A stretch of 51,987 nucleotides of DNA, from IMG/VR virus record IMGVR_UViG_3300037070_002091, positions 1 through 51,987 of that record. One strand, 5' to 3'. Each line of letters begins with the position of its first letter. Position 1 is the stretch's first letter. Positions 3,356 through 51,822 of the stretch are shown here, one piece after another. The translations under genes were made by a program, and so were the position numbers. Under the pieces are notes generated by a model. It did no database searches. It was not told the DNA's origin and was given only the letters and a program-made list of their open reading frames with translations. Source of the DNA: a virus.

Positions 3356-5521
3356 ATGGATGACTTTGCGGGCGACTACGACACGCTCTCGGCCAACGCT
3401 CCGGACAGCGGCGAAGAGAAGGTCGGGAACCCGGTCGTCACGCCGGATGAGGAGAAGCTCGTCAAGAAAGTCCTCGGCCGGATCAAGGCCGACCGGGTAC
3501 ACTACGGCTCTGCCTACACGCGGATGAAGCGGGACCAGATCGTCGCTCGCCGCGGCGCCGATCCGGCATGGTCCGAGAAAGACTACGTCGCCAATCTTGT
3601 CGGTCGCCACATTCGCCAGTCGGTCAGCGCGCTTTACGCCAAGAACCCCAAGGCCGTCGCGCGCCGCCGGCCGCGCCTCGACTTCCAGATCTGGGATGAG
3701 AACGAGCAGACGCTCCTCGCCGCGATCCAGCTGACGCAGCAGTTCCAGATGCAGGCCGCCCCGATGGCCCAGGCGTCGGCGATGGGGCTGGCGCCGCCGG
3801 TCATGGTGCCTCCCGAGGTGCAGCAGGCGCAGGCGCTCATCGAGGACTTTCAGCTCGGCATGCAGGAGCGCGGGCTCGTCGACAAGCTGGGTAAAACACT
3901 GGAAGTGTTGTTTGACTACTACATGAAGGAGCAGAAGCCCCTCGACTTCAAGACGGGCATGAAGCAGCTTGTGCGGCGCGCGAAGACCACGGGCTGCGCC
4001 TTCGTCGAGATCGCGTTCCAGCGCGAGGTGGGGCAGGACGACGCGATCGTCAGCCAGATCGCTGACGCCCGCGCGCAGTTGAACCACATCAAGGCGCTGC
4101 AGCGCGAGGCTGCGGATGAGACTGGCACCGAGGACGACCGGGCCAAGGCCTACGAGCTCGAAGTGTCAATGGCCGCGCTGATGAAGCAGCAGTACGTCTT
4201 GCTGCGCGAAGGCATCGTCTACGACTTTCCCGAGTCCACCCGCGTCATCCCCGACAAGCGATGCCGCAATCTGACCGGGTTCCTCGGCTCGCGCTGGCTG
4301 ACCCTCCAGTACCTTTACACGCCGCAGGAGGTGCTCGGGACGTTCGGGATCGACCTGGACCGGGGCTATACCCCCTATTCGGTTGACGGTGTCGCTCGGT
4401 CAGACGGACCGGACCTGAGCCCTGACGTCGACGAGAACGGCAACACCCCCGACCATTTGGTTTGTGTTTATAAGCACTTCGACAAGGCCGCGGGCAACGT
4501 CTACTACGTCGCCGACGGCTACAAGGGGCTGCTGCGCCCCGCGGGGCCGCCGGAAGTCTACGTCGAGGATTTCTGGCCGGTCTGGGCGTTCACGATCAAC
4601 GAGTGCGACGACCCGGGGCAGGTTTTCCCCAACTCCGACGTCACCCTGATCCTCGACATGCAGACCGAGTACAACCGCTCCCGGCAAGGGAAGAGGGAGC
4701 ATAGGCAGGCCGCGCGCCCGCGCTTCTGGTCCCGTAAGGGTGCGCTGGACGACGCGGACAAGGAGCGGTTGCAGGACTCGAAGCCATTCAGTGTCACCGA
4801 GGTCAACCCCATCGGGGAGGCCGACCTGGACAAGCTGGTCGCTGCGATCCCGATGCCCGGTGTCGATCCGAACCTCTATGACACGAACGAAATCCAGATG
4901 GACATCAACTTGGTGGTCGGGGCGACGGCGAGCTCGGTTGGCGCTGAGGCAAACGGCGACACCGCGACCGGCGAGGCCATTGCGCAGGATAGCAGAGCGC
5001 TCTCCGGCGGGTCGGAGGTCGACGATCTCGACGCCTTCCTCACCGTCATCGCCCGGGCCTCGGGGCAGGTCATGCTCGCGAACCTCTCGCAGGAGACGGT
5101 GCAGAAGATCGCCGGGCGCGGCGCCGTATGGCCGCAGCTCTCGCTCGAGGACTTGGCCGGCGAGGTCTACCTGGAGACGGAGGCGGGTTCCTCTGGCAAG
5201 CCCAACGCGGCGCAGGAGATCAACAACTGGAAGATGATGCTGCCCTTCCTGATCCAGATGCCCGGTATCCGGCCGGAGTGGTTGGCGCGGGAGAGCCTCA
5301 AGCGCCTCGACGACAAGCTGGACCTGACCGACGCGCTGGCCGACGGGCTGCCGAGCATCGTACAGATGAACAGCATGTCGCAGCCCGGCGCCGAGGATCC
5401 TGGGGACACCCCAAGTGAGCAGGGTGGCGCAGGCGCGGCGAACGGCGCCCCTGCACCGACCGAACTCCCGGTTGGGGGTCCGCCCGGGATGGGCAGCAAT
5501 AATGGCATCGGCGCGATGTAG
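3356..5521 (+). CDS. Portal protein
   Basis: A 721-residue product starting directly after the terminase stop, with GGAGG 7 nt before the ATG. Its size and its position between terminase and scaffold match P22-type portals (about 725 residues). The recognisable features are an N-terminal helical region, a long helical stretch rich in Gln and Met (about 120-165), an aromatic core with FWPVWAFTINECDDPGQVFPNSD, the portal-like segment TEYNRSRQGKREHRQAARPRF, and a Pro-Gly-rich disordered C-terminus. It should form the dodecameric DNA channel at one capsid vertex and dock the terminase. The name rests on length, context and general sequence character. Confidence 0.88.
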   Translation: MDDFAGDYDTLSANAPDSGEEKVGNPVVTPDEEKLVKKVLGRIKADRVHYGSAYTRMKRDQIVARRGADPAWSEKDYVANLVGRHIRQSVSALYAKNPKAVARRRPRLDFQIWDENEQTLLAAIQLTQQFQMQAAPMAQASAMGLAPPVMVPPEVQQAQALIEDFQLGMQERGLVDKLGKTLEVLFDYYMKEQKPLDFKTGMKQLVRRAKTTGCAFVEIAFQREVGQDDAIVSQIADARAQLNHIKALQREAADETGTEDDRAKAYELEVSMAALMKQQYVLLREGIVYDFPESTRVIPDKRCRNLTGFLGSRWLTLQYLYTPQEVLGTFGIDLDRGYTPYSVDGVARSDGPDLSPDVDENGNTPDHLVCVYKHFDKAAGNVYYVADGYKGLLRPAGPPEVYVEDFWPVWAFTINECDDPGQVFPNSDVTLILDMQTEYNRSRQGKREHRQAARPRFWSRKGALDDADKERLQDSKPFSVTEVNPIGEADLDKLVAAIPMPGVDPNLYDTNEIQMDINLVVGATASSVGAEANGDTATGEAIAQDSRALSGGSEVDDLDAFLTVIARASGQVMLANLSQETVQKIAGRGAVWPQLSLEDLAGEVYLETEAGSSGKPNAAQEINNWKMMLPFLIQMPGIRPEWLARESLKRLDDKLDLTDALADGLPSIVQMNSMSQPGAEDPGDTPSEQGGAGAANGAPAPTELPVGGPPGMGSNNGIGAM

Positions 5522-5579
5522 CTTGCGACAGTGACATACGCCGTGCTACAAATTCCGCAATTCGATCTTCGGAGGTCAA

Positions 5580-6587
5580 ATGGCCGACTTGAATGAGGCT
5601 GCGGCATCGGCCGACGCAGCCACCGACGAGACCCTGGACGACGTCACCGTCGAGTCTACGGCACCGACCGTAGTCACTGACGAGGACAGCGCGGCATCGT
5701 CCCCCGCGGCGCAGGCAACGGATGCAAAGCCGGAGAGCATTCTCAGCGTCGTTCGCGACGCGGTGAAGCCGAAGGAGTCGGGGCCATCCACCGACGCGAA
5801 CCGCGATCACCCGACCGCGGCGGCGACTGCCCCGGAAGCGGACAACGAGGACTTCAAGGACGTCCCCTTCCACAAGCATCCACGGTTCCAGGATCTCGTG
5901 AGAGAGCGGAACACCCTTCGCGAGCCGGCCAAGCGGCATCAGCAACTCACCTCGTTCCTGGATGAGAATGCGATGTCCGGCGAGGACGCGGCGACCGCGC
6001 TGAACCTGTTCGCGCTGATGAAGCGCGATCCGGAAGCAGCCTGGGCAGAGATGAAGCCGCGTGTGCAGGAACTTCTCCTGCAAATCGGCGAAATCCTCCC
6101 GGCGGACCTCCGGCAGCAGGTCACGGCCGGCACCATGACGCCCGACGTGGCGAAAATGGTGGCGAAGGAGCGGGCCAAGGCGAACGTGCTCCAAGGCAAA
6201 CAGACCTTCGAGCAGTCACGCGCGGCCCGGCTGCAGCAGAACTCGGCGGCGCAGGCCGCCGCTGATCTGCAGGAGAGCATCGTTTCGACGGTGCGAGCCT
6301 GGGCAACGGCGCAGCGAGGCAAGGACATTGACTTCGCGAAGAAGGACGAGGACCTCCAGAAGGAAATCCTCTTCCAGCGACGTCAGACGGGGCAAGTGCC
6401 CAAGACGCCTGCGGAGGCGACGGCTGAATTGGACGCGGCCCTTAAGGCCGTGAACCAGCGCATCCGCTCCCAGCGTCCGGCGCTCCGCGAGGTCCGACCC
6501 GTGGTGGGTGGTGGCACGGCGACACCGTCGCGCGCCAAGCCCGAGAGCCTGCTGGACGTTGTTCGGCAGGCAGGCCAGCGCGCCTGA
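5580..6587 (+). CDS. Capsid scaffolding protein
   Basis: A 335-residue product with an excellent ribosome site (GGAGGT, 7 nt before ATG). Residues 1-90 are acidic and low in complexity (Ala, Asp, Glu, Thr, Ser). The rest is mostly predicted helix with Lys-, Glu- and Arg-rich coiled-coil stretches, and it ends in a basic tail with a second copy of the PES-(I/L)-L-(S/D)-VVR motif seen near residue 50. This composition and the position between portal and major capsid protein are those of scaffolding proteins, which guide coat assembly and leave before DNA entry. A protease domain is not visible. Confidence 0.85.
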   Translation: MADLNEAAASADAATDETLDDVTVESTAPTVVTDEDSAASSPAAQATDAKPESILSVVRDAVKPKESGPSTDANRDHPTAAATAPEADNEDFKDVPFHKHPRFQDLVRERNTLREPAKRHQQLTSFLDENAMSGEDAATALNLFALMKRDPEAAWAEMKPRVQELLLQIGEILPADLRQQVTAGTMTPDVAKMVAKERAKANVLQGKQTFEQSRAARLQQNSAAQAAADLQESIVSTVRAWATAQRGKDIDFAKKDEDLQKEILFQRRQTGQVPKTPAEATAELDAALKAVNQRIRSQRPALREVRPVVGGGTATPSRAKPESLLDVVRQAGQRA

Positions 6588-6604
6588 TCCAGGGTTAGAA
6601 GGAC

Positions 6605-7696
6605 ATGGCCTACACGGCTGCAGAGCTTGCCAACATCCAGAACTCCGCACTCGATTTCTACATCGACAAGGGGAAGCTGGGCATCCAGAACGTCCAGGAT
6701 ATGCCGATGAGCGCCGCGTTCGACGCGGCCGCCGGCAGCTTCTCGGGCGGCAAGGAAGTCAGCGTCGGCGTGAAGACCGGCCAGGGCGGCGGGACGATCG
6801 TTGGCTACGAGGGTGACGATCAGGTCACTTACTACAACCCGACGCCGGCGAAGCGCGCGCACTACCCGTGGAAGGAGCAGTTCCTCGGGATCGGCTGCAC
6901 CATCTCCGAGCTCAAGGTTGACGGTATCACCGTCAACGAGTCGGGCGCCGACCAGACGACCTCGGCGAAGGACGGCCGCGAAGAGCACGCCCTCGCGAAC
7001 ATCCTCGACGAGAAGCTCGAGGTCTTCGCCCAGGACTGGAAGGAAGGCTGGGATGGCCTGATCCACGGTGACGGCACCACCGACACCAAGGCCATCGCGG
7101 GTGTCCGTGCATTCATCCTCGCCGACCCGGCTCTCGGTTCGACCGGGGGCATCAACCGCACCACGAATACCTGGTGGCGGAACCGGGCGGCGACCGCTGC
7201 CGCCAACAGCGCCGGCACCGGTAACAACGTCATCACCTCGGCCGTGGCCGACGGTGGCGCGCTGCTGACCTTCCTGCAGAAGGAGCGCCGCCAGCTTCGC
7301 CGGTACTCGAAGGGCGCGGGCGTCAAGCACCGCTGCTTCGCTGGCTCCGACTTCATGGCCGCGATGGAGAAGGAAATCCGGGCCAACGGCAACTACAGCC
7401 AGTCCGGCTTCCGCGACCGCTCGACGAACGACGGCTCCCAGGCGACCGACGAGGGCATCCCGTTTGGGAATTGGAACATCGTCTACGACCCGGTCATGGA
7501 CGATCTCAGCCTGCAGAAGCGGCTGTACGTCATCGACATGAACGGCATCAAGTTGCTGTACATGCAGGACGAGAAGATGAAGAAGAGCAACCCGGCGCGG
7601 CCCTACGACCGCTTCGTGATGTACCAGGGCCTCACGTCGACCGCCGTTATGGTCGCCAAGAAGCTCCGGACCTCCGGCGTCTACGACATCGCCTGA
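6605..7696 (+). CDS. Major capsid protein
   Basis: A 363-residue product with AAGGA before the ATG. It follows portal and scaffold in the standard order and has the size expected of an HK97-fold coat protein. Sequence clues are LGIGCTISELKVDGITVNES, a helical segment with ILDEKLEVFAQDWKEGWDGLIHGDG, and the C-terminal sheet region PARPYDRFVMYQGLTSTAVMVAKK. The helical region near residues 120-165 would be the spine helix. No delta-domain propeptide or protease is apparent, so the scaffold is probably separate and unprocessed. Expected to be the most abundant virion protein. Confidence 0.9.
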   Translation: MAYTAAELANIQNSALDFYIDKGKLGIQNVQDMPMSAAFDAAAGSFSGGKEVSVGVKTGQGGGTIVGYEGDDQVTYYNPTPAKRAHYPWKEQFLGIGCTISELKVDGITVNESGADQTTSAKDGREEHALANILDEKLEVFAQDWKEGWDGLIHGDGTTDTKAIAGVRAFILADPALGSTGGINRTTNTWWRNRAATAAANSAGTGNNVITSAVADGGALLTFLQKERRQLRRYSKGAGVKHRCFAGSDFMAAMEKEIRANGNYSQSGFRDRSTNDGSQATDEGIPFGNWNIVYDPVMDDLSLQKRLYVIDMNGIKLLYMQDEKMKKSNPARPYDRFVMYQGLTSTAVMVAKKLRTSGVYDIA

Positions 7697-8550: not shown

Positions 8551-8967
8551 ATGCAGCGCATCGACTGCCTCGTTGCCCTCGGAAGCGACAACCGGAACAC
8601 GGTGCCCAAGATGGGGATCACGGTGGCCGAAGCGCACGCGCTGCGGGCGATTCACGGGGCCGAGGCGCTCCTCGACGTCCAGCCCCTCGAAGGTGACGAG
8701 CCCGTCAGCTTGCGCGGCGAGATCACGCGGCTGCGGGAGAAGTACCAGGGCAAGGACGAGGACGGCCGCCCCATCATCGAGGCGCTCTTCGCCGGCGGCG
8801 GGTCAAGCGTCCCCGAGACGGTCGACGACCTGCAGCTCCCCGAGCAGTGCTTCCGGACGCTGACCCGCGTGACCGCGGCGCCGCGGCCCGAGGGACGTCA
8901 GCTCAAGTCCATCGCGCCGGTCTCCGGCGAGGATGACGGCGGGACGGTCGACCATCTCTTCGACTGA
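8551..8967 (+). CDS. Hypothetical protein of the head module
   Basis: A 138-residue acidic product with AAGGAGAAG before the ATG. It lies between the decoration gene and the adaptor-tailspike gene. It has a possible short helical domain (ITVAEAHALRAIHGAEALLDV), a charged linker, and an acidic C-terminus ending DHLFD. The tail faintly recalls the acidic-Phe C-termini found on several replication proteins of this genome, but is too divergent to count. A structural or head-completion role is inferred only from location. Confidence 0.7.
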   Translation: MQRIDCLVALGSDNRNTVPKMGITVAEAHALRAIHGAEALLDVQPLEGDEPVSLRGEITRLREKYQGKDEDGRPIIEALFAGGGSSVPETVDDLQLPEQCFRTLTRVTAAPRPEGRQLKSIAPVSGEDDGGTVDHLFD

Positions 8968-8991
8968 GCCCGTTCGCGGGTAGGAGGACCA

Positions 8992-11601
8992 ATGCGGAAC
9001 CAGGCGCTCTCCTCGGTCCTCCGAAAGTACCGGCAGGAAATCCACGTTTCCGACAACCCGGCGCACAACGCCTCGGTTCGCGACAGCCAGGTCTACGAAT
9101 TGCAGACCGAGCAGGAGCGGCTCTGGAAAAAGCATTCGTGGCCCTTTCTGCGTGTCGAAAGGTACATCGACCTCCAGGCAGGCCAGCGGTTCTACGACAC
9201 GCGCGGCGCCAAGCTCTACGACGGCACCCCGAAGAGCGACCTAGGCATCGAACGCCTCGAGAAGGTCGAACTACGCTGGGGGCCGGGCTGGTACGAGCTG
9301 CGCCCGGACATCGGCCCCGGGGAGTATCAGAGGGTCGATAGCGAGCTAGGCACCCGCGGGTGGCCGTGCGAGGCGTGGCGAGTCTACGAGGACGAGCAGT
9401 TCGAGATCTGGCCCATCCCGTCGGAAAACGCCGATCCGGTCAGCATCGACGGCCGGCTCCGACTGACCGGGATCCGCGACCTCCGCCCCTTCATAGCCGA
9501 CGATGACCGCTGCGACCTCGACGACAACATGGTCATCAAGTTCGCGGCGGCCCGGTACAAGGCGGGCTCCGGCGGGAAGGACGCGCAGATCGTCCTCGAC
9601 GAGGGTAAGGGCCTCGAAACCGACCTGACCGGCAACTTCGTGAAAGCGAAGGTGTTTAGTCTAGGCGGGAGCGAGCTTACGGCGTTCCGCGGGCGGCGCG
9701 GCCCCCAAGGGCCGCTCGGCGGGGGTGCGGGCGTGTCCGCTCCCTCGGGGTCTTCGTCGAGCGGGGGCGGCTCGGGTAGCAGCAGCGCCCCCAGCGTCAC
9801 CAACGTCACGAATATCTACCAGGTCTCCGCCGACAGCGAGGTCATCCGGCCGGAGGACTATACCCTCGGAGCTGATGACCTGAACATCGCACAGGCGTTC
9901 ACGGATGGCATGCTGACCGGCCGCCCGGTCCGCCTCGATGGCAGCTACGCGCTCTCAGGGTCGCTCTCGACCGTCGCCATGACGACCGAGCACCTGACGA
10001 TTCTTGGCTCCGGCCTGATAACCTACACCGCCAACGTGGGCGTCGGGATGTCTTTCCACGCCACCTACCCGGCCGCGGTTGCGGTTTCAGCGGTAACGCA
10101 GACGACGCGCTCGTTCCCGGGTACTGGTACGACGGCCTGCGAATGCACCCAGATCGCCGCGGCGGGCCACGGCTGCACCGTTGGCGACATCATCAAGATC
10201 GTCTCGGACGACCAGATCGTCCCGCAGGCAGCAGTGAACCACCGCCAGGGCGAGTTCTGCTACGTCGCCGATGTAGATGGGAATGACCTCTACGTCGCCG
10301 GCTACCTGCACGACACCTACACGACAACCGTGCGGATCGTTCGGGTGCGGACCGAGGCGAAGCTGGCCATAGAAGGGCTACGTTTCGCCGCGACGCCGGA
10401 TCAAATGAGCTGGTCGCTGACGATGCTCAAGGTGACGGGTTTTGCCTTCCCACGCATCCGGACAAGTTGCGTGTCCGGCTACAGCCAGGGGCTCTATCTG
10501 TCATCCTGTTTCATGGCTGACGTCGATATCGACGGCACCGAAATGCTCAATCGCATCGGGAGCGGGAGCAGCAACGGATATCTGCTCCTCGACAGCACGT
10601 CGGCCTACACGTTGGCCAAAGTTAAGGCGGTCGATGCGCGGCACGCCTACACGACAAGCACCCCAGCCTCGAGCACGAGCGATGAAGCGTACCTCTACGG
10701 TCGCACCTATGGTGCGGAGGTTACTGGAACGGCGCACGGCTGCTCCTCGGCGGCTTTCGACACTCATTCCGAGGCTGTGGACGTCACCTTCCGGGGCATC
10801 TCGACCGGCGGCGCCCGGAACGGCGAGGAGGCTTCCGGCATTGGCGCGCAGCTCCGTGGCACGGGAACCCAGCTCATCGGTGGCCGCGACTTCATGTCCA
10901 CCTACGGGGCCAACGTCCATGTCCAGGTCGAGGGGGACTGTGTCGATAACGAGATCATCGACTGGAACTTCACCGGCCTTGGGGACGGCGTTCGGATAAA
11001 CTTCCCCAGCGCCGCCTTCCCCGCGGTCCGCCCGATAGTGCGTGGCGGGAAATTCCGCTCCAACTTCACGAGATGCGCCGCGCTCTGGCTTTGCTCCGGT
11101 GCGATCATCGAGAACCTATACCTCGCTCCCTACGGCTCCACGGCCAACATGGAAGGCATCTACATCGGCAATGACGTCGAGGTGCTGGTCCGTAACCTGA
11201 CCGTCGATCTCTCGGGTTACAGCGGCTCAACGTTCCGTGTTTTCGGCATCCACGCCGCCGGCAGCACCCTCGTTGTCGATGGTGCCAGGGTCATCGGGGC
11301 GTCCGGCAAGCTCCAGGCCTGGATCACCGGCGGGAGCAATGCGGGGACTTACCGGCGGTCTAGGCTAGTCACTGACGCGGCGCCGAGTAGCGGCGAGATC
11401 ATCAACGGCGGCTCGCTCACCACCCAGCTACTCGGGGCGATGAAGCCGGAGGCTTTCGCGATCGCCAGTCTGCCGTCCGCGGCGGCCGAGGGTGCCGGGA
11501 CGATCGTCTGGACGACCAACGGCTACGCCGGCGCGGCCGGCATGGCGTATTCGAACGGGACAGATTGGAAGCGATTTGATACCGGCGCGACGGTCTCGTA
11601 A
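8992..11601 (+). CDS. Fused head-to-tail adaptor and tailspike (beta-helix) protein
   Basis: An 869-residue product with AGGAGG before the ATG. Residues 1-235 look like a podovirus adaptor or tubular-tail-A protein: an N-terminal helix, QERLWKKHSWPFLRVERYIDLQ, EAWRVYEDEQFEIWPIPS, and the late helix MVIKFAAARYKAGSG. Residues 240-265 form a Gly-Ser linker. From about 285, PEDYTLGADDLNIAQAF (a typical tailspike head-binding start) leads into a long repetitive beta region with TILGSGLI, EIIDWNFTGLGDGVRI, and RNLTVDLSGYSG, consistent with a right-handed beta-helix. No catalytic residues can be assigned. It probably binds the portal ring with one end and surface polysaccharide with the other. The gene ends by overlapping the next start (TAATG). 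Confidence 0.8.
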   Translation: MRNQALSSVLRKYRQEIHVSDNPAHNASVRDSQVYELQTEQERLWKKHSWPFLRVERYIDLQAGQRFYDTRGAKLYDGTPKSDLGIERLEKVELRWGPGWYELRPDIGPGEYQRVDSELGTRGWPCEAWRVYEDEQFEIWPIPSENADPVSIDGRLRLTGIRDLRPFIADDDRCDLDDNMVIKFAAARYKAGSGGKDAQIVLDEGKGLETDLTGNFVKAKVFSLGGSELTAFRGRRGPQGPLGGGAGVSAPSGSSSSGGGSGSSSAPSVTNVTNIYQVSADSEVIRPEDYTLGADDLNIAQAFTDGMLTGRPVRLDGSYALSGSLSTVAMTTEHLTILGSGLITYTANVGVGMSFHATYPAAVAVSAVTQTTRSFPGTGTTACECTQIAAAGHGCTVGDIIKIVSDDQIVPQAAVNHRQGEFCYVADVDGNDLYVAGYLHDTYTTTVRIVRVRTEAKLAIEGLRFAATPDQMSWSLTMLKVTGFAFPRIRTSCVSGYSQGLYLSSCFMADVDIDGTEMLNRIGSGSSNGYLLLDSTSAYTLAKVKAVDARHAYTTSTPASSTSDEAYLYGRTYGAEVTGTAHGCSSAAFDTHSEAVDVTFRGISTGGARNGEEASGIGAQLRGTGTQLIGGRDFMSTYGANVHVQVEGDCVDNEIIDWNFTGLGDGVRINFPSAAFPAVRPIVRGGKFRSNFTRCAALWLCSGAIIENLYLAPYGSTANMEGIYIGNDVEVLVRNLTVDLSGYSGSTFRVFGIHAAGSTLVVDGARVIGASGKLQAWITGGSNAGTYRRSRLVTDAAPSSGEIINGGSLTTQLLGAMKPEAFAIASLPSAAAEGAGTIVWTTNGYAGAAGMAYSNGTDWKRFDTGATVS

Positions 11602-13010
11602 TGGGCACCATCTGGATCAAGGAGTTCAAGGGCGGCCTCGACACCCGGCGGCTCCCCGAGACGACGTCCGGCGGGACGCTGATCCGCTGCTACGATGGCC
11701 ACCTCACGCAAGGCGGCGAGATCGAGCAGCGCGCGATCTTCGAGCTCGTCTGGGCCTCGCCGCAGGGCTCGTCGAAGGGGCTGGCGTCGACGCCCGAGAG
11801 CCTCGTGATCTTCGGCCACGCCTCGGAGCCAGCCGGGCTCCCGGCCAACTTCATCTACCAGCAGCTCGCCCACCCGAGCGGGGAGGCCCTGGTCGCGGTA
11901 CCCGGCTGGGACAACTTCGGTGGCGAGATCGTCGCGGCGGCGCGCTTCGCCGACAACTCGCGCTACCTCTTCGTCGACGGCACGCTCGTCACTGACGGCG
12001 GCGTGCCTGAGGAGCCGACTAGCGTTTTGACCGCCAACTCGAAGATCAACGTCGGCTCGGGAACGTCGGTTGTCTTCTCCAAGATCCGGGATGCGACCGA
12101 CTTCACCGGCACGGGCTATGGCTTCATAGATATGGCCTTCGAGATCGGCGATGACGCCTCGGTTATAGCCATCGCCGAGTACGACACCGAGGTTGCGGTC
12201 TTCTTCCCCCGCAACATCATGATCTGGCATTTCGACACCGATCCGGACAACACGGCGCCGGTCCAGCGTCTCAACGCGGCGGGAACGTTCGGCGCCCGGG
12301 CCGTGGTGCCGTTCAGCGACAGTGACCTGATCTTCTACGACCAGACCGGGCTCCGCTCGCTCCGCGCCCGTGATTCGTCCAGGGCCGCCATGACGGTCGA
12401 CATCGGCAGCGCGATCGACGCGCTCACGGTCGCCGCCTACGCAGCCGCGAGCGACTTGCAGCGCGAGCTCACCGTCGGCGTCGTCGACCCCGCGACCGGG
12501 CGGCTCTGGATGGCGATTGGCGACACGATCTTCATTCTCTCGAGCTATCAGGCGACGAAGGTCACGGCCTGGTCGATCTACCGGCCCGGGTTTAGCGTCG
12601 ATGCTATGGTGGCCTGGAACGACCATATCTACCTGCGATCCGGCGACGATTTCTACGTCTACGGCGGCGAGGGCGAGCCGGCGTACAGCGACACCGTCGA
12701 GACTGAGGTTTGGCTGCCCTATCTCGACGCCAACGTGCCAGCGCAGGCGAAGACGCTGCACGGCGTCGACGTCGCCTGTCGCGGCGTGTGGGAAGTCCGC
12801 GTTGGTTTCGACCCGAGGAACCTCAACGCCTCCGACCTTCTGGGCCGGGTGAACGGGACGACTTACGGGATTCGACCGGTCAGCGTGACCGGGCGTGGGA
12901 CGCACATCGGCCTGCGCTTCCGCGTCCTTGGCCCCGTCAGCGCCACGGAGCCGGCCGTGCTTGCCGCCGCGGCCATCCACCACGACCTCGACGACCAGAC
13001 GGACAGCTGA
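11601..13010 (+). CDS. Packaged-DNA stabilisation / tail nozzle protein (P22 gp10-like)
   Basis: A 469-residue product translationally coupled to the adaptor-tailspike gene. It begins MGTIWIKEFKGGLDTRRLPETTSGG and has repeated blade-like strands (FADNSRYLFVDGTLV, DLIFYDQTGLRSLRA, RLWMAIGDTIFIL, DHIYLRSGDDFYVY) consistent with the beta-propeller of P22 gp10-type tail plug proteins. The family closes the portal channel after packaging and forms the tail tube on which spikes and fibres sit. Order after the adaptor supports this call. Confidence 0.78.
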   Translation: MGTIWIKEFKGGLDTRRLPETTSGGTLIRCYDGHLTQGGEIEQRAIFELVWASPQGSSKGLASTPESLVIFGHASEPAGLPANFIYQQLAHPSGEALVAVPGWDNFGGEIVAAARFADNSRYLFVDGTLVTDGGVPEEPTSVLTANSKINVGSGTSVVFSKIRDATDFTGTGYGFIDMAFEIGDDASVIAIAEYDTEVAVFFPRNIMIWHFDTDPDNTAPVQRLNAAGTFGARAVVPFSDSDLIFYDQTGLRSLRARDSSRAAMTVDIGSAIDALTVAAYAAASDLQRELTVGVVDPATGRLWMAIGDTIFILSSYQATKVTAWSIYRPGFSVDAMVAWNDHIYLRSGDDFYVYGGEGEPAYSDTVETEVWLPYLDANVPAQAKTLHGVDVACRGVWEVRVGFDPRNLNASDLLGRVNGTTYGIRPVSVTGRGTHIGLRFRVLGPVSATEPAVLAAAAIHHDLDDQTDS

Positions 13011-13456
13011 TGTTCGTGCGTCTCTTGATGCCCCACGACCGCGAGGCGGTGCGGGCGCTGGTGCGGGCTGGTATCGAGGAGAGCGCGCCGGACCTGGGCT
13101 TCGACGAAGAGGTGTTCAACCGCACCTTCGACGCCAGTGTCACGACTGGCCACCCGACGTGTTTCGTCGTCGTTGACCCCCCGGCCGGGGTAGTCGGGGT
13201 GCTTTTGTGCGTGATCGAGGGCTTCTACTTCCACGCTGGCCTTTCAACAGCGGTGCATGTAATCTACGTCGCGCCCGCCAAGCGCGGCACTCGGGCTCCC
13301 GCACTCCTGATGCAAGCCTTCCTCGCATGGAGTGAACAAGTGGGCGCCCGGCGAAAGCACCTCGGAATCGGCAACTCCCTCCACCCCGATCGCACCGCTC
13401 GGTTCTTCGAGCGTTTCGGCGCGCGGCGTGTAGGCTATGAGCTCGTGATCGAATGA
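13010..13456 (+). CDS. GNAT-family N-acetyltransferase
   Basis: A 148-residue product starting at the ATG that overlaps the previous stop (TGATG). The GNAT core is visible: an N-terminal strand MFVRLLMPHDREAV, a central beta hairpin around VVGVLLCVIEGF, the acetyl-CoA loop region VIYVAPAKRGTRAPALLMQAFLAW (basic Gly-containing turn then helix), and a last strand-helix FFERFGARRVGYELVI. Its substrate is unknown. Similar single-domain acetyltransferases occur in the tail modules of several podoviruses, where modification of a virion or host protein is suspected but unproven. Confidence 0.8.
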   Translation: MFVRLLMPHDREAVRALVRAGIEESAPDLGFDEEVFNRTFDASVTTGHPTCFVVVDPPAGVVGVLLCVIEGFYFHAGLSTAVHVIYVAPAKRGTRAPALLMQAFLAWSEQVGARRKHLGIGNSLHPDRTARFFERFGARRVGYELVIE

Positions 13457-42538: not shown

Positions 42539-42730
42539 GATGCGCCCACAAAAATGCGCCTCCCCGCGACCTCCGGACAATGTGTCCTAGCTTCGCCTCA
42601 GCCTAGATGCGCCCACAAAAATGCGCCTCCCCGCAACCTCCGGACAATGTGTCCTAGCTTATCCTCAACCTAGACGCGTACAAAAATGCCGCCCCTCCAC
42701 AACTTCCGGACAAGTTGTCCCAGACCGATA
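42539..42730 (+). repeat. Three tandem 66-67 bp repeats, each with a GGACA-N3-TGTCC palindrome
   Basis: Units begin at 42539, 42606 and 42673. Units 1 and 2 differ at few positions; unit 3 is more diverged. Each carries ACAAAAATGC early and a palindrome (42575-42587, 42642-42654, 42708-42720; the last is GGACAAGTTGTCC, perfect). No gene is supported across them. Candidates: an operator array, packaging site or phage centromere-like site. Confidence 0.7.
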
Positions 42731-42958: not shown

Positions 42959-43846
42959 ATGGCCTACGTTCCGCTTGGGCTCCAGACGCTCACCACGGCC
43001 GTCGCGAACAACGGAACCCTCACGTTTCCCTATCCTGTCGGCCTGGTACAGGCTGATTTTACTGGCGATTTTGCCCTGGAGCGGGGCAGCGTCGCGATCA
43101 ACAGCAACGAGGTCTATGAGGAGTTTGACGAGGAGGTGCTCTTCACCTACGGAGCCTCGCTCGTCACGGTCCAGAACCTCTCGGGGGTGGCCTGGGTTGC
43201 GGGATCGCTGATCGCGGCCGTCGGCTCGCGGCTCACCGAAGCGGCGTCGAGCGGTGGCGGCGGGGGTGGTTCCGACGGCATCGACGATGGGGACTATGGC
43301 GATTTCGCAGTCGAGGACGACATCGCGACCATCGACAGGACGGAGCGCACCCTCGCCGAGGTTCTGGGCGTCACCGCCGGCGGGGTAGTCGGCACGGCAA
43401 CGGCCAACGCCGTCGTCGAGACGCCGGGGACATGGTGGCACCAGGGCGTCGGCGGCGCCGAGGGCAAGACGGACGCTGAGGCGCAGGCCCTCATCATCCC
43501 GATCAACACCCTAACGGCCCGGGCCACGGGCGCGACTGACAGCGTGGTTCCGGACACCGACTGCAAGGTTATCGTCGCCGCCTTCGCCACCGATGCGAAC
43601 GACTGGATCGTGCTGCCGACGCCGACGCCCGGGCGCGAAATCCGGGGGTATTCGGCAGTAGCGCACGAGATACGCACGGTCGCTTCGTCGAACGTCAAGA
43701 TCAACAACGTCGACGGCGACGGGACGCAGGAAGCAGCGATACCAGCCACGACTTTCTGGGTCGCGAACTGCACCTCGGCGACGACATGGATACTTCGTGC
43801 GTGGAACAACCTCGCGGCACCAATCACCGCCATCATTCCGGACTGA
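42959..43846 (+). CDS. Virion protein, paralog of the head decoration protein at 7722
   Basis: A 295-residue product with CGGAGGAAGC before the ATG. Residues about 15-85 (NNGTL, YPVG, QADFTGD, INSNEVYEE, FTYGAS, NLSGVAWVA) match the N-terminus of the 7722 product. A Gly-rich linker (SSGGGGGGSDG) follows, then a beta-rich outer part (KTDAEAQALIIPINTLTARATG, GREIRGYSAVAHEIRTV). I infer a decoration or fibre anchored by the shared domain. It precedes the giant adhesin-like gene, so it could be its attachment partner. Confidence 0.7.
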   Translation: MAYVPLGLQTLTTAVANNGTLTFPYPVGLVQADFTGDFALERGSVAINSNEVYEEFDEEVLFTYGASLVTVQNLSGVAWVAGSLIAAVGSRLTEAASSGGGGGGSDGIDDGDYGDFAVEDDIATIDRTERTLAEVLGVTAGGVVGTATANAVVETPGTWWHQGVGGAEGKTDAEAQALIIPINTLTARATGATDSVVPDTDCKVIVAAFATDANDWIVLPTPTPGREIRGYSAVAHEIRTVASSNVKINNVDGDGTQEAAIPATTFWVANCTSATTWILRAWNNLAAPITAIIPD

Positions 43847-43850
43847 GCTA

Positions 43851-46800
43851 TTGGGCGTCTCAGCTTACTACGACGACGAAGGCAGCCTGGTCTTTCAGAC
43901 GACACCCGTTCCGACGCGGTTCTTCGCTGATCGCGAGGAGTTCACCCGCCTGACGCTGCCGGTGCTGGACGGGTCGACGGAGTCCGAAGAGGGGGTCGTC
44001 TATGTCCAGGTCGGAGATACGATTTCCGTTGACCCCGCCGGCACCTACTCGGACGACGCGACTCTGGTCTACACGTTGCGTCGGTACGATACGGAGGGCG
44101 TGGAGCAGGGCAGCGACGTAGGCACGAGCTGGGTCGTCCCCGATCATGTGGGGCAGACGCTCGTGATTGAGGAGAAGGCGACGGACGCCCTTGGGCGCAT
44201 CCTGTTCGTCTCCACCAGCTCCGTTGTCATCCTTCCCGTCGACCTCGATGCCATTCCGCCTGTCGTCGCCCAAGCGCCGACGATCGCCGGCCTGGCCGCC
44301 GTCGGGGAGACGCTCTCCGTGGTGAGCTCGGGCGTCTGGCTGGGCGAGCCCGCGCCCACCATCGCCACCAACTGGCAGCGGGACGGGGTCGACATCGGCG
44401 GCGCGACGAGTAGCACCTACGTCCTACAAGTCGCTGACGATCACACCGATATCCGCCTGCGAGCCACGGCTACGAATGCCTCTGGCAGCGCTACGGCGTA
44501 CAGCGACGCCATCCCGATCACGACTCCCACGATCATCGCGACGCAGGGGCGCTCGGGCGCGACGTTGACCCCGTTCGACAACGCCGCGGCCGGGGCCGAG
44601 GCGGGGCACATGATCGTGCTCGCGGCCTTCGTCCACAACTCGACGACGCCCCCGCCGCTTGTCGATGACGAGACCTGGGTTTCGCCGCCCAACGGCACCT
44701 CGGCATCGAGCAACTCGGCCGCCCGGCTATCCTACCATATCGTGCAGGAGAGCGACGCCGACGCCACATGGACGGTGCTGGGCGCCACGCGAGCAGTCGC
44801 GGCCTACGTCAAGGACTTCTACCCGGGCGACCCCCTTTCCTTCTCGGGCTGGGTTGCCAGTGGGGACTCAACCCCAGACTGGCCCGCGTTCGACGTCGAC
44901 CTGGCCGGGCTGATGATGGCTTTCCGCTGCATTCGCGGCAGCAACAAGCCCGTGCGAGTTTATCCTGGGATGCAGACCCTGGTGGACACGAACAACTCGC
45001 AGATGCAGCTCCAGGCCGCCGTCACGGGGGATAGCGCGCCCTATGTGACCGTGCCAACCGGCGATCTCGCTGCCTACTCCGAAGTCGATCTTGGCAGCGC
45101 CTCGCAGCAGGCTCACACCGGGCTCGTGCTCATCAACGACTGGTCGAGCAACGTCGTCGCCCCCATCAACTACCAGCTGCCCACCTTCGCCGGCGTGCCG
45201 ACAGTCGGGCAGACCCTCACCAAGCTCCACGACGGCCTTTGGTTTGGTCTGCCGGTGCCCACCTACGCCTACCAGTGGCGGCGCGACGGCGCGAGCATCG
45301 GCGGGGCCACCAGCACCTCCTACGTCCTGCAGGCGGCCGACGCCGGCACGCAGGTCAGCCTCCAGGTGACGGCGACGAACAGCCAAGGCAGTGCGCAGGC
45401 TGCCGCGAACTCGGTTTCCGTGGCGGCCGCGCTGGTTTCGCCGGTCAACACCGCGATTCCGACGATCACCGGAACCCCGGCGGTCGGGCAGACTCTCACC
45501 GCGGCCAGCGACGGCACCTGGACGGGCACGCCGGCCCCGACGCTCACGCGCAAATGGCAGCGAGACGGCGTCGACATCGCCAGCGCCACGGCTTCGACCT
45601 ACCTCCTGGTGACGGCGGACGCCGGGCACAACGTCAGCGTGCTGGTGACGGGCACAAACGCCTCGGGGAGCTCGAGCGCCAGCAGCAACCCGGTCGCCAT
45701 CCCCGCGGTCACGGTGGCCCCGGTCAACACCGTCCTCCCGACGATCAGCGGCACCCCGACCGAGGGCCAGACCCTTACGGCGGCCGACGGCACCTGGACG
45801 GGGACCCCCTCTCCGACGCTCACGCGGAAGTGGCAGCGCGATGGCGTCGACATCGGCGGCGCCACCGGCACGACCTACGTGCTGGTGACTGCGGATGTCG
45901 GAACCGAGGTAAGGGTGCTGGTCACGGGGACCAACACGGCAGGAAGTTCCGCTGCGGCCAGCAGTCCGGTCACGGTGGCTCCGATCTCGGTCGCGCCGTC
46001 GAATACGGCAGTACCGACCATCTCGGGCACGCCGACCGTAGGGCAGACGCTCACCGCAACCAGTGATGGCACATGGACCGGTACGCCGACGCCGACGCTC
46101 GCGCGCAACTGGCAACGGGATGGAGTGGACATCGGTGGCGCCACCGGCACGACCTACGTGCTCCAGGCCGGGGACGCGACGCATCAGATAAGTGTTCTGG
46201 TAACAGCGACCAATACGGCGGGCAGCGCCACCGCGAGCAGCACATCCCTGACGATCGACCCGGCGGCCCAGGCCCCCGTTAACACGGTCGCTCCGACGAT
46301 TTCCGGCACCGGCACCGTCGGGCTGACGCTCACGCGCGTCAGCGACGGCACATGGACCGGGACGCCAACTCCGACGCTCGCCCGCAACTGGCAGCGCGGA
46401 GGCGTCGACATCGCTGGGGCTACGGGCACAACCTACGTGCTGCAAGCGGCGGATAGTGGGCAGCAGATTCGCCTGCGGGTCACGGGAACGAACTCGCAGG
46501 GCTCATCGAACGGGTTCAGCATCGCAACCTCTGTCACCGCCCTTACTGCCCCGGTCAACACAGTCGCTCCGACGATCTCGGGGACAGGCACGATCGGCAA
46601 TACTCTCTCGCAAGTCAGTGCCGGCACCTGGACGGGCAACCCCACGCCGACTCTCACGCGCAACTGGCAGCGGAACGGCGTCGACATCGCCGGCGCGACC
46701 GCGACGACCTACGTCCTACAGGCGGCCGACGGCGGCCAGAACATCCGCCTACGGGTCACGGGAACGAACAGCCAAGGCGTCGCCTCCGGGTTTAGCATCG

Positions 46801-48695
46801 CAACCGCCGTGGCCGCGGCCGTGGCCCCGGCCAACGTCTCGCTTCCCGCGATCTCGGGCACGGGGGCGGTCGGGCAGACGCTCACGATGGAGGATGCCGG
46901 CGGCTGGACCGGCACGGATCCTATCACCTACGCACGCAACTGGCAGCGGTCTGGCGTCGACATCGTCGGCGCGACCGGGACGACCTATGTCCTGCAGGCG
47001 GCCGATGCCGGCCTCAACGTCCGCCTGAGCGTCACCGCCACCAACATCGCCGGATCGGCGACGGCGCGCAGCGCGGTAGTCAACGTCGCCGCCACGGATG
47101 TCCCGGTCAACACGGTGCTGCCTGACATCACTGGCTCCGCGGTTGTCGGATCGACGCTCAATGGCACCCTAGGCACGTGGACGGGCTCGACCCCCATCAC
47201 CTACGCCCGCCAGTGGCAGCGCGACGGCGTGAATATCTCCGGGGAGACCTCGAGCGCCTATACGCTGGTCGCCGCCGACGCGGGGCACAACGTTCGCGTA
47301 CGGGTGGTGGCGACGAACAGCGCCGGATCGACGACGGCGTTCAGCGCGGCCGAGCTGATCGAGAGCGGTGCCTCCGGCGATTGGGCCGTCGTCAACGTCA
47401 CCCCGAGCAACTATCTGACGCAGTTTCGGGCTGCGCGGACCAAGAAGACCAGCTATAGGCTCGCGGCGGGAATCTACGACGATTTCCTGTGGCCGACCAA
47501 TATCACCGACTTTGAGATCGAGATCGTTCCGCAGGACCGGAATAATCCACCGACTATGCGCGCAGTTGCGTTCGGGGCAAATGCTGACCGGGGAAAACGG
47601 CGCAACTTCGCGCACATCACCTACTCGTTCGGCAGCAATTTCACCAAGAAGGTCACGTTTGACGGTATTGATTTCATCGGGGAGCGGTGGACTAGCTGCG
47701 AGAGTGTTTTGGGCGGAACGCAGAGCTTCACGAACGCCGCGCAGGGCGGCATGCCGGACAGCGGAACACCTACTGATAGCCCCTTCCTGGCGGGCAACGA
47801 GGGCGGCATTGCCTGGCGTATCTACGGCACAACGCATCCGGCGTGGAAGTCGGGATTTCTCGGGAAAAAGGAAAGTGCCGGATATATCGGTCTTGACGTT
47901 AACTCAAGCGTCGTCATGGAGGTGAAGAACTGCCTGTTTAACGGTTACTCCATCCAGTTCAACTTTAGCGGCAACGGGTCGATAAACTGCCATCACAATA
48001 CATTCGAGGATGTCTGCGAAGACGGGATGAAACCTACTAGTAACAACGTCTGGTTTCATCACAACGAATGCAGGTATTCGAGGGTGCCGACGGAGGAGAT
48101 CGCGAACGCCTCGGGTGGGCCGGGGAGACCGCATCCTGACTTCTGGCAGCAGCCATCCGGTGCCGTTAGCGACCTGGTCTTCGAGAAGAACGTGTTCATC
48201 GACTTCGAGAATGGCGCGGCACGCCCGGGCCAGATGCACGGCGCTCTCATTCGCAACGGCTCGAGCACCGGCCGCGCCGAGCGCGTCGTGGTCAGGTGGA
48301 ACGAATGGCGCATCTGCAGTGACAGCGGCGTGCTTCTCAGCGACGTGCAGCATGATGGCGGTAGCGGCATCAACGGCAGCAATCTGGACCTGATCATTGA
48401 GGGAAATAAAGTGTGGACCGGCGGGAAGCCGGGATCAGAGAACAGTGGCGGTCCTCAGTTCCCATTCTACAAAGACTTCGACGCTTCGGTTGCCGCTGGT
48501 GGAACGCGTATTCGCTGCACGAACAACGTCTCTATTCCGAACCGCGGGGCTTACCACGGCATCGGGACCAACAATCGCGAAAGCAATTCCGCTACCGTAT
48601 GGCCCGATAATTGGGTGGAGATCGCCCGGGATCGTGTTGGCCCGGGTCAGCCCTTCTCCGGCCGGTATGGCGCGACCGCCGGCGTGCCGGCATGA
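43851..48695 (+). CDS. Giant virion protein: Ig-like repeats plus beta-helix domain (adhesin or tailspike)
   Basis: About 1,614 residues from TTG at 43851 (an open frame extends to 43797, inside the preceding gene; start uncertain). N-terminal beta domain, then one Ig-like repeat, a 230-residue insert, and eight more repeats of about 92 residues, each with PTISGTPTVGQTLT, W-x-G-x-P-x-P-T, WQRDGVDIGGATGTTYVL and L-x-V-TGTN. The last 430 residues are a right-handed beta-helix (VTFDGIDFIGERW, CLFNGYSIQFNF, HHNTFEDVCEDGM, HPDFWQQPSG), as in polysaccharide lyases and tailspikes, but no catalytic site can be named. Likely a long-reach receptor-binding or depolymerising fibre. ATGA-coupled to the endolysin. 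Confidence 0.82.
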   Translation: MGVSAYYDDEGSLVFQTTPVPTRFFADREEFTRLTLPVLDGSTESEEGVVYVQVGDTISVDPAGTYSDDATLVYTLRRYDTEGVEQGSDVGTSWVVPDHVGQTLVIEEKATDALGRILFVSTSSVVILPVDLDAIPPVVAQAPTIAGLAAVGETLSVVSSGVWLGEPAPTIATNWQRDGVDIGGATSSTYVLQVADDHTDIRLRATATNASGSATAYSDAIPITTPTIIATQGRSGATLTPFDNAAAGAEAGHMIVLAAFVHNSTTPPPLVDDETWVSPPNGTSASSNSAARLSYHIVQESDADATWTVLGATRAVAAYVKDFYPGDPLSFSGWVASGDSTPDWPAFDVDLAGLMMAFRCIRGSNKPVRVYPGMQTLVDTNNSQMQLQAAVTGDSAPYVTVPTGDLAAYSEVDLGSASQQAHTGLVLINDWSSNVVAPINYQLPTFAGVPTVGQTLTKLHDGLWFGLPVPTYAYQWRRDGASIGGATSTSYVLQAADAGTQVSLQVTATNSQGSAQAAANSVSVAAALVSPVNTAIPTITGTPAVGQTLTAASDGTWTGTPAPTLTRKWQRDGVDIASATASTYLLVTADAGHNVSVLVTGTNASGSSSASSNPVAIPAVTVAPVNTVLPTISGTPTEGQTLTAADGTWTGTPSPTLTRKWQRDGVDIGGATGTTYVLVTADVGTEVRVLVTGTNTAGSSAAASSPVTVAPISVAPSNTAVPTISGTPTVGQTLTATSDGTWTGTPTPTLARNWQRDGVDIGGATGTTYVLQAGDATHQISVLVTATNTAGSATASSTSLTIDPAAQAPVNTVAPTISGTGTVGLTLTRVSDGTWTGTPTPTLARNWQRGGVDIAGATGTTYVLQAADSGQQIRLRVTGTNSQGSSNGFSIATSVTALTAPVNTVAPTISGTGTIGNTLSQVSAGTWTGNPTPTLTRNWQRNGVDIAGATATTYVLQAADGGQNIRLRVTGTNSQGVASGFSIATAVAAAVAPANVSLPAISGTGAVGQTLTMEDAGGWTGTDPITYARNWQRSGVDIVGATGTTYVLQAADAGLNVRLSVTATNIAGSATARSAVVNVAATDVPVNTVLPDITGSAVVGSTLNGTLGTWTGSTPITYARQWQRDGVNISGETSSAYTLVAADAGHNVRVRVVATNSAGSTTAFSAAELIESGASGDWAVVNVTPSNYLTQFRAARTKKTSYRLAAGIYDDFLWPTNITDFEIEIVPQDRNNPPTMRAVAFGANADRGKRRNFAHITYSFGSNFTKKVTFDGIDFIGERWTSCESVLGGTQSFTNAAQGGMPDSGTPTDSPFLAGNEGGIAWRIYGTTHPAWKSGFLGKKESAGYIGLDVNSSVVMEVKNCLFNGYSIQFNFSGNGSINCHHNTFEDVCEDGMKPTSNNVWFHHNECRYSRVPTEEIANASGGPGRPHPDFWQQPSGAVSDLVFEKNVFIDFENGAARPGQMHGALIRNGSSTGRAERVVVRWNEWRICSDSGVLLSDVQHDGGSGINGSNLDLIIEGNKVWTGGKPGSENSGGPQFPFYKDFDASVAAGGTRIRCTNNVSIPNRGAYHGIGTNNRESNSATVWPDNWVEIARDRVGPGQPFSGRYGATAGVPA
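45177..47358 (+). repeat. Tandem coding repeats for eight Ig-like domains (about 277 bp each)
   Basis: Unit starts include 45177, 45456 and 47118; DNA identity between central units is high, for instance the GACGGCACCTGGACGGG and GGCGTCGACATCG segments. A ninth, more distant unit lies near 44272. Such arrays change length by recombination and may be collapsed or mis-assembled. Confidence 0.8.
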
Positions 48696-50112: not shown

Positions 50113-51822
50113 ATGACCTACCCTGTCGCGCCGACGATCGCCACGAGCTACACGGCGTTTCAGCAGGCGCAGGGCGATAATTCGTTTCCTGGGGCGCAGC
50201 TCGACGCCGATCTTCGGAACCTGCGAGACGCGATCACCGCCGTCAACAACGCGCTCAAGCTGATCCAGCGTTCCGACGGCGAGGTGGCCAACGGCACGAT
50301 CGGGAACGAGCAGCTGGCCGCGGGACTGGTCCTCGGGATCGAGCCGCCGACGGGGTGGATCACGGGCACGGTTTACGCCTACGCCGCTACGGTGTTCGCT
50401 GAGAACGGCTACTACGTCTGCATGACCGGCCACACCGCGGGCGACTTCTCCTCCGATCTCTCCGCCGGCTACTGGCTGCTGCTCATCAACTTCGAACCCT
50501 ACATCCAGGAGTCGGTCGACGACGCGATCGGCGATACTATCGACGAGGCGGCCGGCGATGCCGTGGACGCCTCGATTGCCGCGTCAAACCTGGTGCCGCA
50601 GACCGCATCGACCACGGCGCTCATTGGCACCGCCGCGACGGCAAACCGCGGGGTCCGGCTCACGGACTCGATCCGCGACGCGACGTTCCTCTGGGACGCC
50701 GCCATCACCCCGGCGGAGTACGCCCTTGACCCGGAGGGGCTGGTCTACGTCGTTCCTGTTGACGGTGAGAACGGCGCGTGGGTCAACCCGCTCGCCGACC
50801 GGCGCCGCGGCCTCTGGACGGATAGCGCCATCCCGGGTCGGAGGCTCCGCGTCACCTCCGGGCTCTTCGCCGGCAAGAACGCCGTCACGTACCTTGGCGC
50901 CACCGAAGGTAACAACGGAGATTCCGAGTTCTGGGTTCACGACGACGATGACGACCATTGGTGGGTAGCCAATGCGGGGAATTTGCTTGAGCGAGACGGG
51001 GGCAGCATCAACACCGCCATCGTGTCGCGCGGCCCGGTGACGGGCTCCGGTTACACGGTCGGGCTCCTGATCGGCACCGTCGGCCGGAACACTGGCGTCG
51101 GGGCCAACACCAGCCATTGCGTCTACTTTGAGAGCGTCGCTTCGGCGACCCACGCCTCGAACGCCGGTGTGGGCGAGTTCGAGATCATCAACCAGCGCGG
51201 CGCGAGCTCGGTTTCCGACGGCGAGAAGCCCTACATCGCTGCGACCAGCCTGACCTACCTCTTGGGCCTGGGCGCCGGCGGCGGGCGCGGGGTGAACGCC
51301 GGCGACAACGTCGATCACCTCTTCCGCGTCGTCGGCAACGGCGCGAAGTTCAAGGCGGGCATCACGTTCAAGAACGGCGCGCTCGTCGCTGATGGGAATA
51401 CCGAGCATCGGGCGATGCAGCTCTACACGGGCAACAGCTTCGTTTGGTATCGCTCGGGCGACACCGAGTCGGCGCGCATCGTTTGTAACTCAACTACCGG
51501 CGATATGTGGCGGATGGCCTTTGGCGACAGCCTGTTCGCCATCAGTCGTGGCGGCGACCTGGGCATCGTTTTCGAGCCTGTGGCGGACGCGACCCGCTAC
51601 CTCAAGATCACCAGCGCCGCGGGTACGGACCCGGTGAAGGTCGAGGCCGTTGGCGGCAACGCCGACTTGATGCTCAAGCCGGCCGGCTCCGGTGTGGTTC
51701 GGTTCGGCAACACCCGTCAGGCAGCCTCGAACGCGGCCAATTTCACCGCCACTGGCTACCTCGAGATCAAGGATTCGTCGGGCACCAGTTACTACGTCCC
51801 TGCACGAGGAGCGACTTGGTGA
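50113..51822 (+). CDS. Tail fibre protein
   Basis: A 569-residue product with GCAGGATCCGAC before ATG. N-terminal residues 15-75 (FPGAQLDADLRNLRDAITAVNNALKLIQRSDGEVANGTIG) match the start of the fibre protein at 50, indicating a shared attachment domain. A helical trimer-like segment (YIQESVDDAIGDTIDEAAGDAVDASIA) then leads to a Gly- and Asp-rich beta shaft and a C-terminal region with NADLMLKPAGSGVVRFG and GYLEIKDSSGTSYYVPA, common near phage fibre tips and before cleaved chaperones, though no chaperone is evident. GTGA-coupled to the following small gene. Confidence 0.75.
   Translation: MTYPVAPTIATSYTAFQQAQGDNSFPGAQLDADLRNLRDAITAVNNALKLIQRSDGEVANGTIGNEQLAAGLVLGIEPPTGWITGTVYAYAATVFAENGYYVCMTGHTAGDFSSDLSAGYWLLLINFEPYIQESVDDAIGDTIDEAAGDAVDASIAASNLVPQTASTTALIGTAATANRGVRLTDSIRDATFLWDAAITPAEYALDPEGLVYVVPVDGENGAWVNPLADRRRGLWTDSAIPGRRLRVTSGLFAGKNAVTYLGATEGNNGDSEFWVHDDDDDHWWVANAGNLLERDGGSINTAIVSRGPVTGSGYTVGLLIGTVGRNTGVGANTSHCVYFESVASATHASNAGVGEFEIINQRGASSVSDGEKPYIAATSLTYLLGLGAGGGRGVNAGDNVDHLFRVVGNGAKFKAGITFKNGALVADGNTEHRAMQLYTGNSFVWYRSGDTESARIVCNSTTGDMWRMAFGDSLFAISRGGDLGIVFEPVADATRYLKITSAAGTDPVKVEAVGGNADLMLKPAGSGVVRFGNTRQAASNAANFTATGYLEIKDSSGTSYYVPARGATW

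Follow-up and report, generated by a model that had tools for sequence, protein, structure and literature searches.

An adaptor-tailspike fusion protein encoded in the head-tail gene block of an uncultured short-tailed phage

The window, a stretch of 51,987 nucleotides from an uncultured, short-tailed phage known as a metagenomic contig alone, carries on its plus strand a head-tail gene block that includes, at 3356-7696, genes for the portal (3356-5521), a scaffold-like protein (5580-6587) and the major capsid protein (6605-7696), all three assigned by PHROGs and alignment. Further along this block, between a conserved small open reading frame (8551-8967, plus strand) and the gp10/gp12-like nozzle gene (11601-13010, plus strand; alignment and tblastn over the relatives), lies a single uninterrupted reading frame (8992-11601, plus strand) that encodes 869 amino acids with no internal stop, as read directly from the sequence, and whose ATG is preceded by the ribosome-binding site AGGAGG (8982-8987). 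Three parts can be distinguished in its product: an adaptor domain made of a helix bundle and a beta-rich region (residues 1-241; 8992-9714), a Gly/Ser/Pro linker (residues ~236-276; 9697-9819), and a tailspike module of ~62 kDa, by calculated mass, built as a right-handed beta-helix (residues 277-869; 9820-11598). GC and GC3 of both halves are similar to those of the neighbouring genes. A frameshift or homopolymer origin of the frame was ruled out, as a scan found no homopolymer run of six or more within it.

The gene occupies a conserved slot. In Rhizobium phage RHph_N65 and Microcystis phage Mae-Yong1326-1 the order is terminase, portal, scaffold-like protein, capsid, small open reading frames, adaptor and nozzle, divided in RHph_N65 between the ends of its circular record; the small frame directly upstream, which has tblastn matches in 38 loci, holds the same position in both phages. 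At the boundary between the fusion and nozzle genes the sequence reads TAATG, the second A of the stop codon being the A of the next ATG, and on this overlap the nozzle gene is translationally coupled to the fusion gene. The same stop-start overlap is found in many stand-alone relatives and at loci L137 and L252, to which we return below. The insertion thus keeps the operon coupling, unlike a random misjoin, which would not respect it. The nozzle protein of most relatives has an insert of variable size (~200 amino acids in L004) at residues ~132-142, which reads as a further place in this tail where a surface domain varies; it is missing from the window, L005, L003, L053 and L069. Two N-acetyltransferase-like genes that follow the nozzle gene in RHph_N65 (5004-5919 of L002) are absent from the window at 13010-13453, as is the single such gene found after the nozzle gene of the Microcystis phage.

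Among 50,697 phage records searched by tblastn, residues 1-241 matched two, RHph_N65 and Mae-Yong1326-1. The RHph_N65 counterpart, EVC08_004 (QIG74316.1), is a stand-alone, spike-free protein of 237 amino acids in the same gene slot and with the same neighbours (major capsid protein, small frames, nozzle), and is 43% identical to the adaptor part over 225 residues (E 3e-45); the Microcystis one, a stand-alone 238-residue protein annotated as 'tail tubular protein' in the same slot, shows 30% to the window's adaptor. Single-sequence scans of viral contigs with the adaptor or the spike gave no matches; alignment searches of IMG/VR retrieved hundreds of further adaptor relatives, and the one relative among genome contigs (38%, on a MAG contig) sits in an open frame of about 230 residues, as expected of a stand-alone protein. 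The Pfam family SU10_adaptor (PF24175) matches 55 of 62 family members; RHph_N65 scores above its cut-off, and the window slightly below the curated value of 27 (24.2 bits, E 5e-5).

Since sequence comparison alone yielded no solved homologue for either half, the folds had to be compared, each half being modelled separately. The AlphaFold (AF2) model of the adaptor, built from 62 sequences, reached a pLDDT of 89, with the residues after ~218 (218-241) predicted to be disordered in the monomer. Its best Foldseek matches among solved structures are all phage adaptor chains (from E 4e-8, probability 1.00), those of cyanophage A4, VP1, SU10, Pa223, KHP30, N4 and GP4, with T7 gp11 lower down; the probability is 1.00 for SU10, VP1, A4 and Pa223. 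Homology and the predicted model together show that residues 1-217 fold as an adaptor of the T7/SU10 type. Like the SU10 gp11 and T7 gp11 proteins of this family, the domain combines the adaptor fold with a slot before the nozzle and a beta-rich region at the fibre-dock position, and this region would be the fibre dock. A profile of the 62 adaptors found no second adaptor in the six frames of the 52-kb contig, so that the presence of another copy elsewhere in it was rejected. As the sole copy, and provided that the contig is complete, the domain must fill the adaptor role in this phage.

The C-terminal half resembles tailspikes at several levels. It matches phrog_29932 (E 3e-18), the tail-spike family phrog_7458 (E 2e-6) and phrog_13768 (tail), and in tblastn against phage records it is 36% identical over 266 amino acids to the tailspike of Klebsiella phage 37P2 (E 3e-23), with weaker matches in jumbo, Ackermannviridae and Gordonia phages. 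The AF2 model is a beta-helix with a pTM of 0.75, whose last ~100 residues are unreliable (pLDDT <50), and Foldseek aligned it with phi297 gp61 (4RU5, E 1e-11), LKA1 gp49 (4RU4), AP22 gp54 and the K1 capsule lyase (7W1C). Taken together, the alignments and the model show that residues 277-869 fold as a beta-helix spike. The body is common to the 37P2 tailspike, phi297 gp61, LKA1 gp49 and the K1 capsule lyase, and the motifs RHAYTT and FDTH (residues ~550-592; 10639-10767), invariant columns in two alignments of related tailspikes, are shared with the 37P2 group and mark a candidate substrate-binding or catalytic patch. By analogy with these proteins, the spike would bind or cut a cell-surface glycan. 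Two differences stand out. The tailspikes and depolymerases inspected are separate proteins without an adaptor, and most of the 37P2 group carry the depolymerase C-terminal sandwich (Phage_depo_C), which is present in five of the six members of the tailspike alignment and was not detected in the window's spike. On the basis of homology and of the adaptor copy search, attachment of the spike to the virion is supplied by the adaptor domain and not by a head-binding domain.

The junction between the two halves can be placed by aligning adaptor C-termini. The closest stand-alone adaptors (L085, L087, L089 and L005) end in GPxRVHYR and a few more residues, an RVHYRxNE-like motif, whereas the window's chain reads GPQGPLGGGAG at the same point and runs on into the linker, which is about 35 residues long and in which 22 of the 41 residues at ~236-276 are Gly or Ser. 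Homology to other spikes starts at about residue 277. The fusion thus exchanged the final eight to ten residues of the adaptor for new sequence and placed the spike ahead of the nozzle gene. This sets the window apart from the known members of the SU10/T7 adaptor family, whose chains finish in a short, portal-embracing arm; the window has a linker and a 62-kDa spike in place of the terminal motif. The original prediction, which had described one 869-residue protein with an adaptor-like N-terminal domain, a Gly-Ser linker and a beta-helix tailspike, is thus borne out: its gene boundaries are reproduced exactly, the linker is a Gly/Ser/Pro stretch, and structure prediction of each half, which it had proposed as a check, gave models with Foldseek matches that agree with the homology and gene slot of the adaptor and with the PHROGs and 37P2 matches of the spike. 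These sequence comparisons and models confirm that the fusion of an adaptor and a tailspike in one chain is real.

How rare such a fusion is was assessed over all loci fetched, which gave 224 distinct adaptor sequences, a non-random set made of the best-scoring matches of each search with many weaker relatives left unretrieved; 223 have a closed frame. In 216 of these 223, the adaptor ends within 20 residues of the profile's last match, and in one more at 22 residues. Three adaptors (L125, L126 and L128, near 6001-6822) carry ~45 extra C-terminal residues after Gly-rich linkers, and three have a domain-sized C-terminal extension: the window, L137 and L252. L137 (535-1662) carries GGGGSPPPSPAP and ~115 residues after a Gly-rich linker, an extension with no detectable relatives. 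L252, the IMG/VR contig 3300022920_000021, encodes a 1029-residue adaptor-fibre protein (4001-7090) in which an adaptor domain that passes the Pfam cut-off (SU10_adaptor, E 1.5e-7) is followed by GGGGGSGGGG, a repeat fibre and a C-terminal Peptidase_S74 domain (Pfam, E 1.5e-10); the contig holds the fused adaptor copy only. Domains of the S74 type are chaperones of trimeric fibres, as in endosialidase-type proteins, so that the L252 ring protein too would bear a trimer.

The window and L252 thus share an adaptor, a Gly-rich linker, a receptor-binding module of trimeric type and the TAATG start of the nozzle gene, but the module is a repeat fibre with an S74 chaperone in one and a beta-helix spike in the other, and the adaptors belong to different branches. 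In the adaptor tree the window groups with L085 and L087 (support 1.0) and L252 with the L130-L139 group (0.96), a distance most simply explained by independent fusions; the L252 fusion is probably independent of the window's, judging from this tree, and its sequence shows that the adaptor C-terminus tolerates a large receptor-binding module. The nearest adaptors, L085 and L087 (56-58% over the alignment), are unfused, and the adaptor-spike fusion consequently rests on one contig. The premise of the original prediction that adaptor and spike are separate in known podoviruses holds for nearly all relatives, though not without exception, L252 being fused. In the open-access literature searched, we found no description of an adaptor-spike fusion, and to our knowledge no described virion protein joins an adaptor and a tailspike. 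Both halves belong to known families; joining them in one chain appears new, in that we did not find it described.

A published parallel is the hybrid tailspike of Vibrio phage Peru-2, where modular exchange puts a pectin-lyase-fold spike on a T7-like tail (PMC13320782). In Peru-2 the fusion partner of the spike is a T7 gp17-like tail-binding domain and the adaptor is a protein of its own, whereas in the window the adaptor itself is fused.

The phage also encodes ordinary fibres. Two tail-fibre genes (47-862 and 50113-51822, both plus strand; found by alignment, the former also with a PHROG tail collar fibre match) start with the lineage's N-terminal anchor domain, which is shared with the fibre-like genes of RHph_N65, separate genes in that phage, and is present in 21 of the 22 relatives' contigs checked. 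From its place at the start of fibre-like genes, the anchor would serve in docking. Since the two anchored fibre genes coexist with the fusion, the fused spike appears to be an added receptor-binding protein, supplementing the ordinary fibres. An alignment search, run without a positive control, found no other copy of this spike in the 22 relatives' contigs. A further candidate adhesin, of 1632 amino acids, lies at 43797-48695; it contains about nine Ig-like repeats, each of ~92 residues, and towards its C-terminus the sequence resembles a beta-helix. An apparently intergenic stretch at 42539-42672 holds a tandem pair of 67-nt repeats, 94% identical. The contig ends (5-45 and 51946-51986) share a GC-rich repeat, 85% identical over 41 nt, with no exact overlap of at least 20, and the fibre genes that flank the contig end lie together as a single block in RHph_N65; the contig may represent an almost entire genome in circularly permuted form.

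How could one chain serve as ring and spike? In T7 and SU10 the adaptor is dodecameric: its C-terminal helix or loop clasps the portal, and six trimeric fibres sit in the fibre docks (PMC6702177, PMC9509320). We propose that a tailspike module was joined in frame to the 3' end of a functional adaptor gene, displacing the last few adaptor codons. Twelve copies of the fusion would form the ring under the portal, and the adaptor C-terminus, wrapped around the portal clip or stem in T7, SU10 and P22, would here lead through the linker to the outside. From a tether origin near the portal clip, a linker of at most ~120 A when extended could gather three neighbouring spike chains, whose domains would trimerise, so that twelve chains would ideally give each virion four spikes. 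Their target, for binding or cutting, would be a cell-surface glycan, and the ordinary fibres would keep their usual docking sites. The simplest reading has twelve adaptors bearing four spike trimers, a sound deduction that is unproven. It would divide the chains cleanly with none left over, but would stand off the nozzle's sixfold symmetry. Two points speak against the proposed model: by analogy with T7 and SU10, where the C-terminal end of the adaptor packs on the portal beneath the capsid, the site would be a crowded one for a 62-kDa domain, and the spike C-terminus is poorly modelled and devoid of the depolymerase sandwich, leaving trimerisation of the spike putative.

Taking the best explanation as a whole, we regard it as quite probable that the fusion yields one virion protein with two functions, each assigned from homology. 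We lean more tentatively, with a little less than even confidence, to its specific form: a fusion uncut in the virion, with four covalently tethered trimers in quasi-fourfold arrangement besides the ordinary fibres, arising on two or more occasions as the portal-embracing arm was replaced or extended. A maturation or assembly protease might instead cut the linker, making the gene product a polyprotein that yields an ordinary ring and free spike trimers. By its composition the linker is long, flexible and exposed; neither fold needs it, and its cutting would relieve the crowding at the portal; a cut spike, however, would begin at its body, without a recognisable anchor such as the phage's other fibres use, and in L252 the self-cleaving S74 domain sits at the far C-terminus, where it would not separate fibre from adaptor. 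We therefore consider cleavage unlikely. Quite improbable, in our view, is a second product, a free spike started inside the gene, which would let a trimer be tethered through just one or two of its chains and raise the number of mountable spikes above four, resolving the arithmetic of twelve versus three. A scan of in-frame start codons pointed to a GTG at the domain boundary (residue 248; 9733-9735, plus strand) with a G-rich stretch ~7 nt upstream. No other internal start for a free spike is plausible, and this one is weak, since Gly codons would give such a stretch by chance and an AGGAGG-like site is absent.

An assembly or sequencing artefact that joined an adaptor gene to a tailspike gene would account for a fusion seen in a single metagenomic contig with unfused closest relatives, but it would require two seamless junctions (adaptor to linker in frame, spike to nozzle as TAATG) in a stretch of uniform composition free of homopolymer runs, and L252 is an independent fusion of the same design; we hold it to be very improbable. 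Finally, an N-terminal head-binding domain is usual in tailspikes, and the part that precedes the spike is N-terminal here, so it could be such a domain merely resembling an adaptor; this scarcely credible reading, which the original prediction had weighed together with an adaptor encoded elsewhere, was rejected on the stand-alone adaptor homologues, the normal gene slot of the lineage's adaptor, the Foldseek adaptor matches and the lack of a second copy in the contig.

We conclude that the uncut adaptor-spike fusion, tentative as its stoichiometry is, would depart from the described short-tailed phages, in which receptor-binding proteins use a dedicated anchor to dock where adaptor and nozzle meet; in this phage it would be the ring that carries the module. 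Such a ring-borne module would break the usual arrangement of six trimers, and the matching of 12-fold rings to 6-fold nozzles and 3-fold spikes could be tested on it directly. The fusions point to the adaptor C-terminus as a site where evolution can readily attach additional host-recognition modules, and proteins annotated only as 'tail tubular protein' would be a new place to seek hidden spikes.
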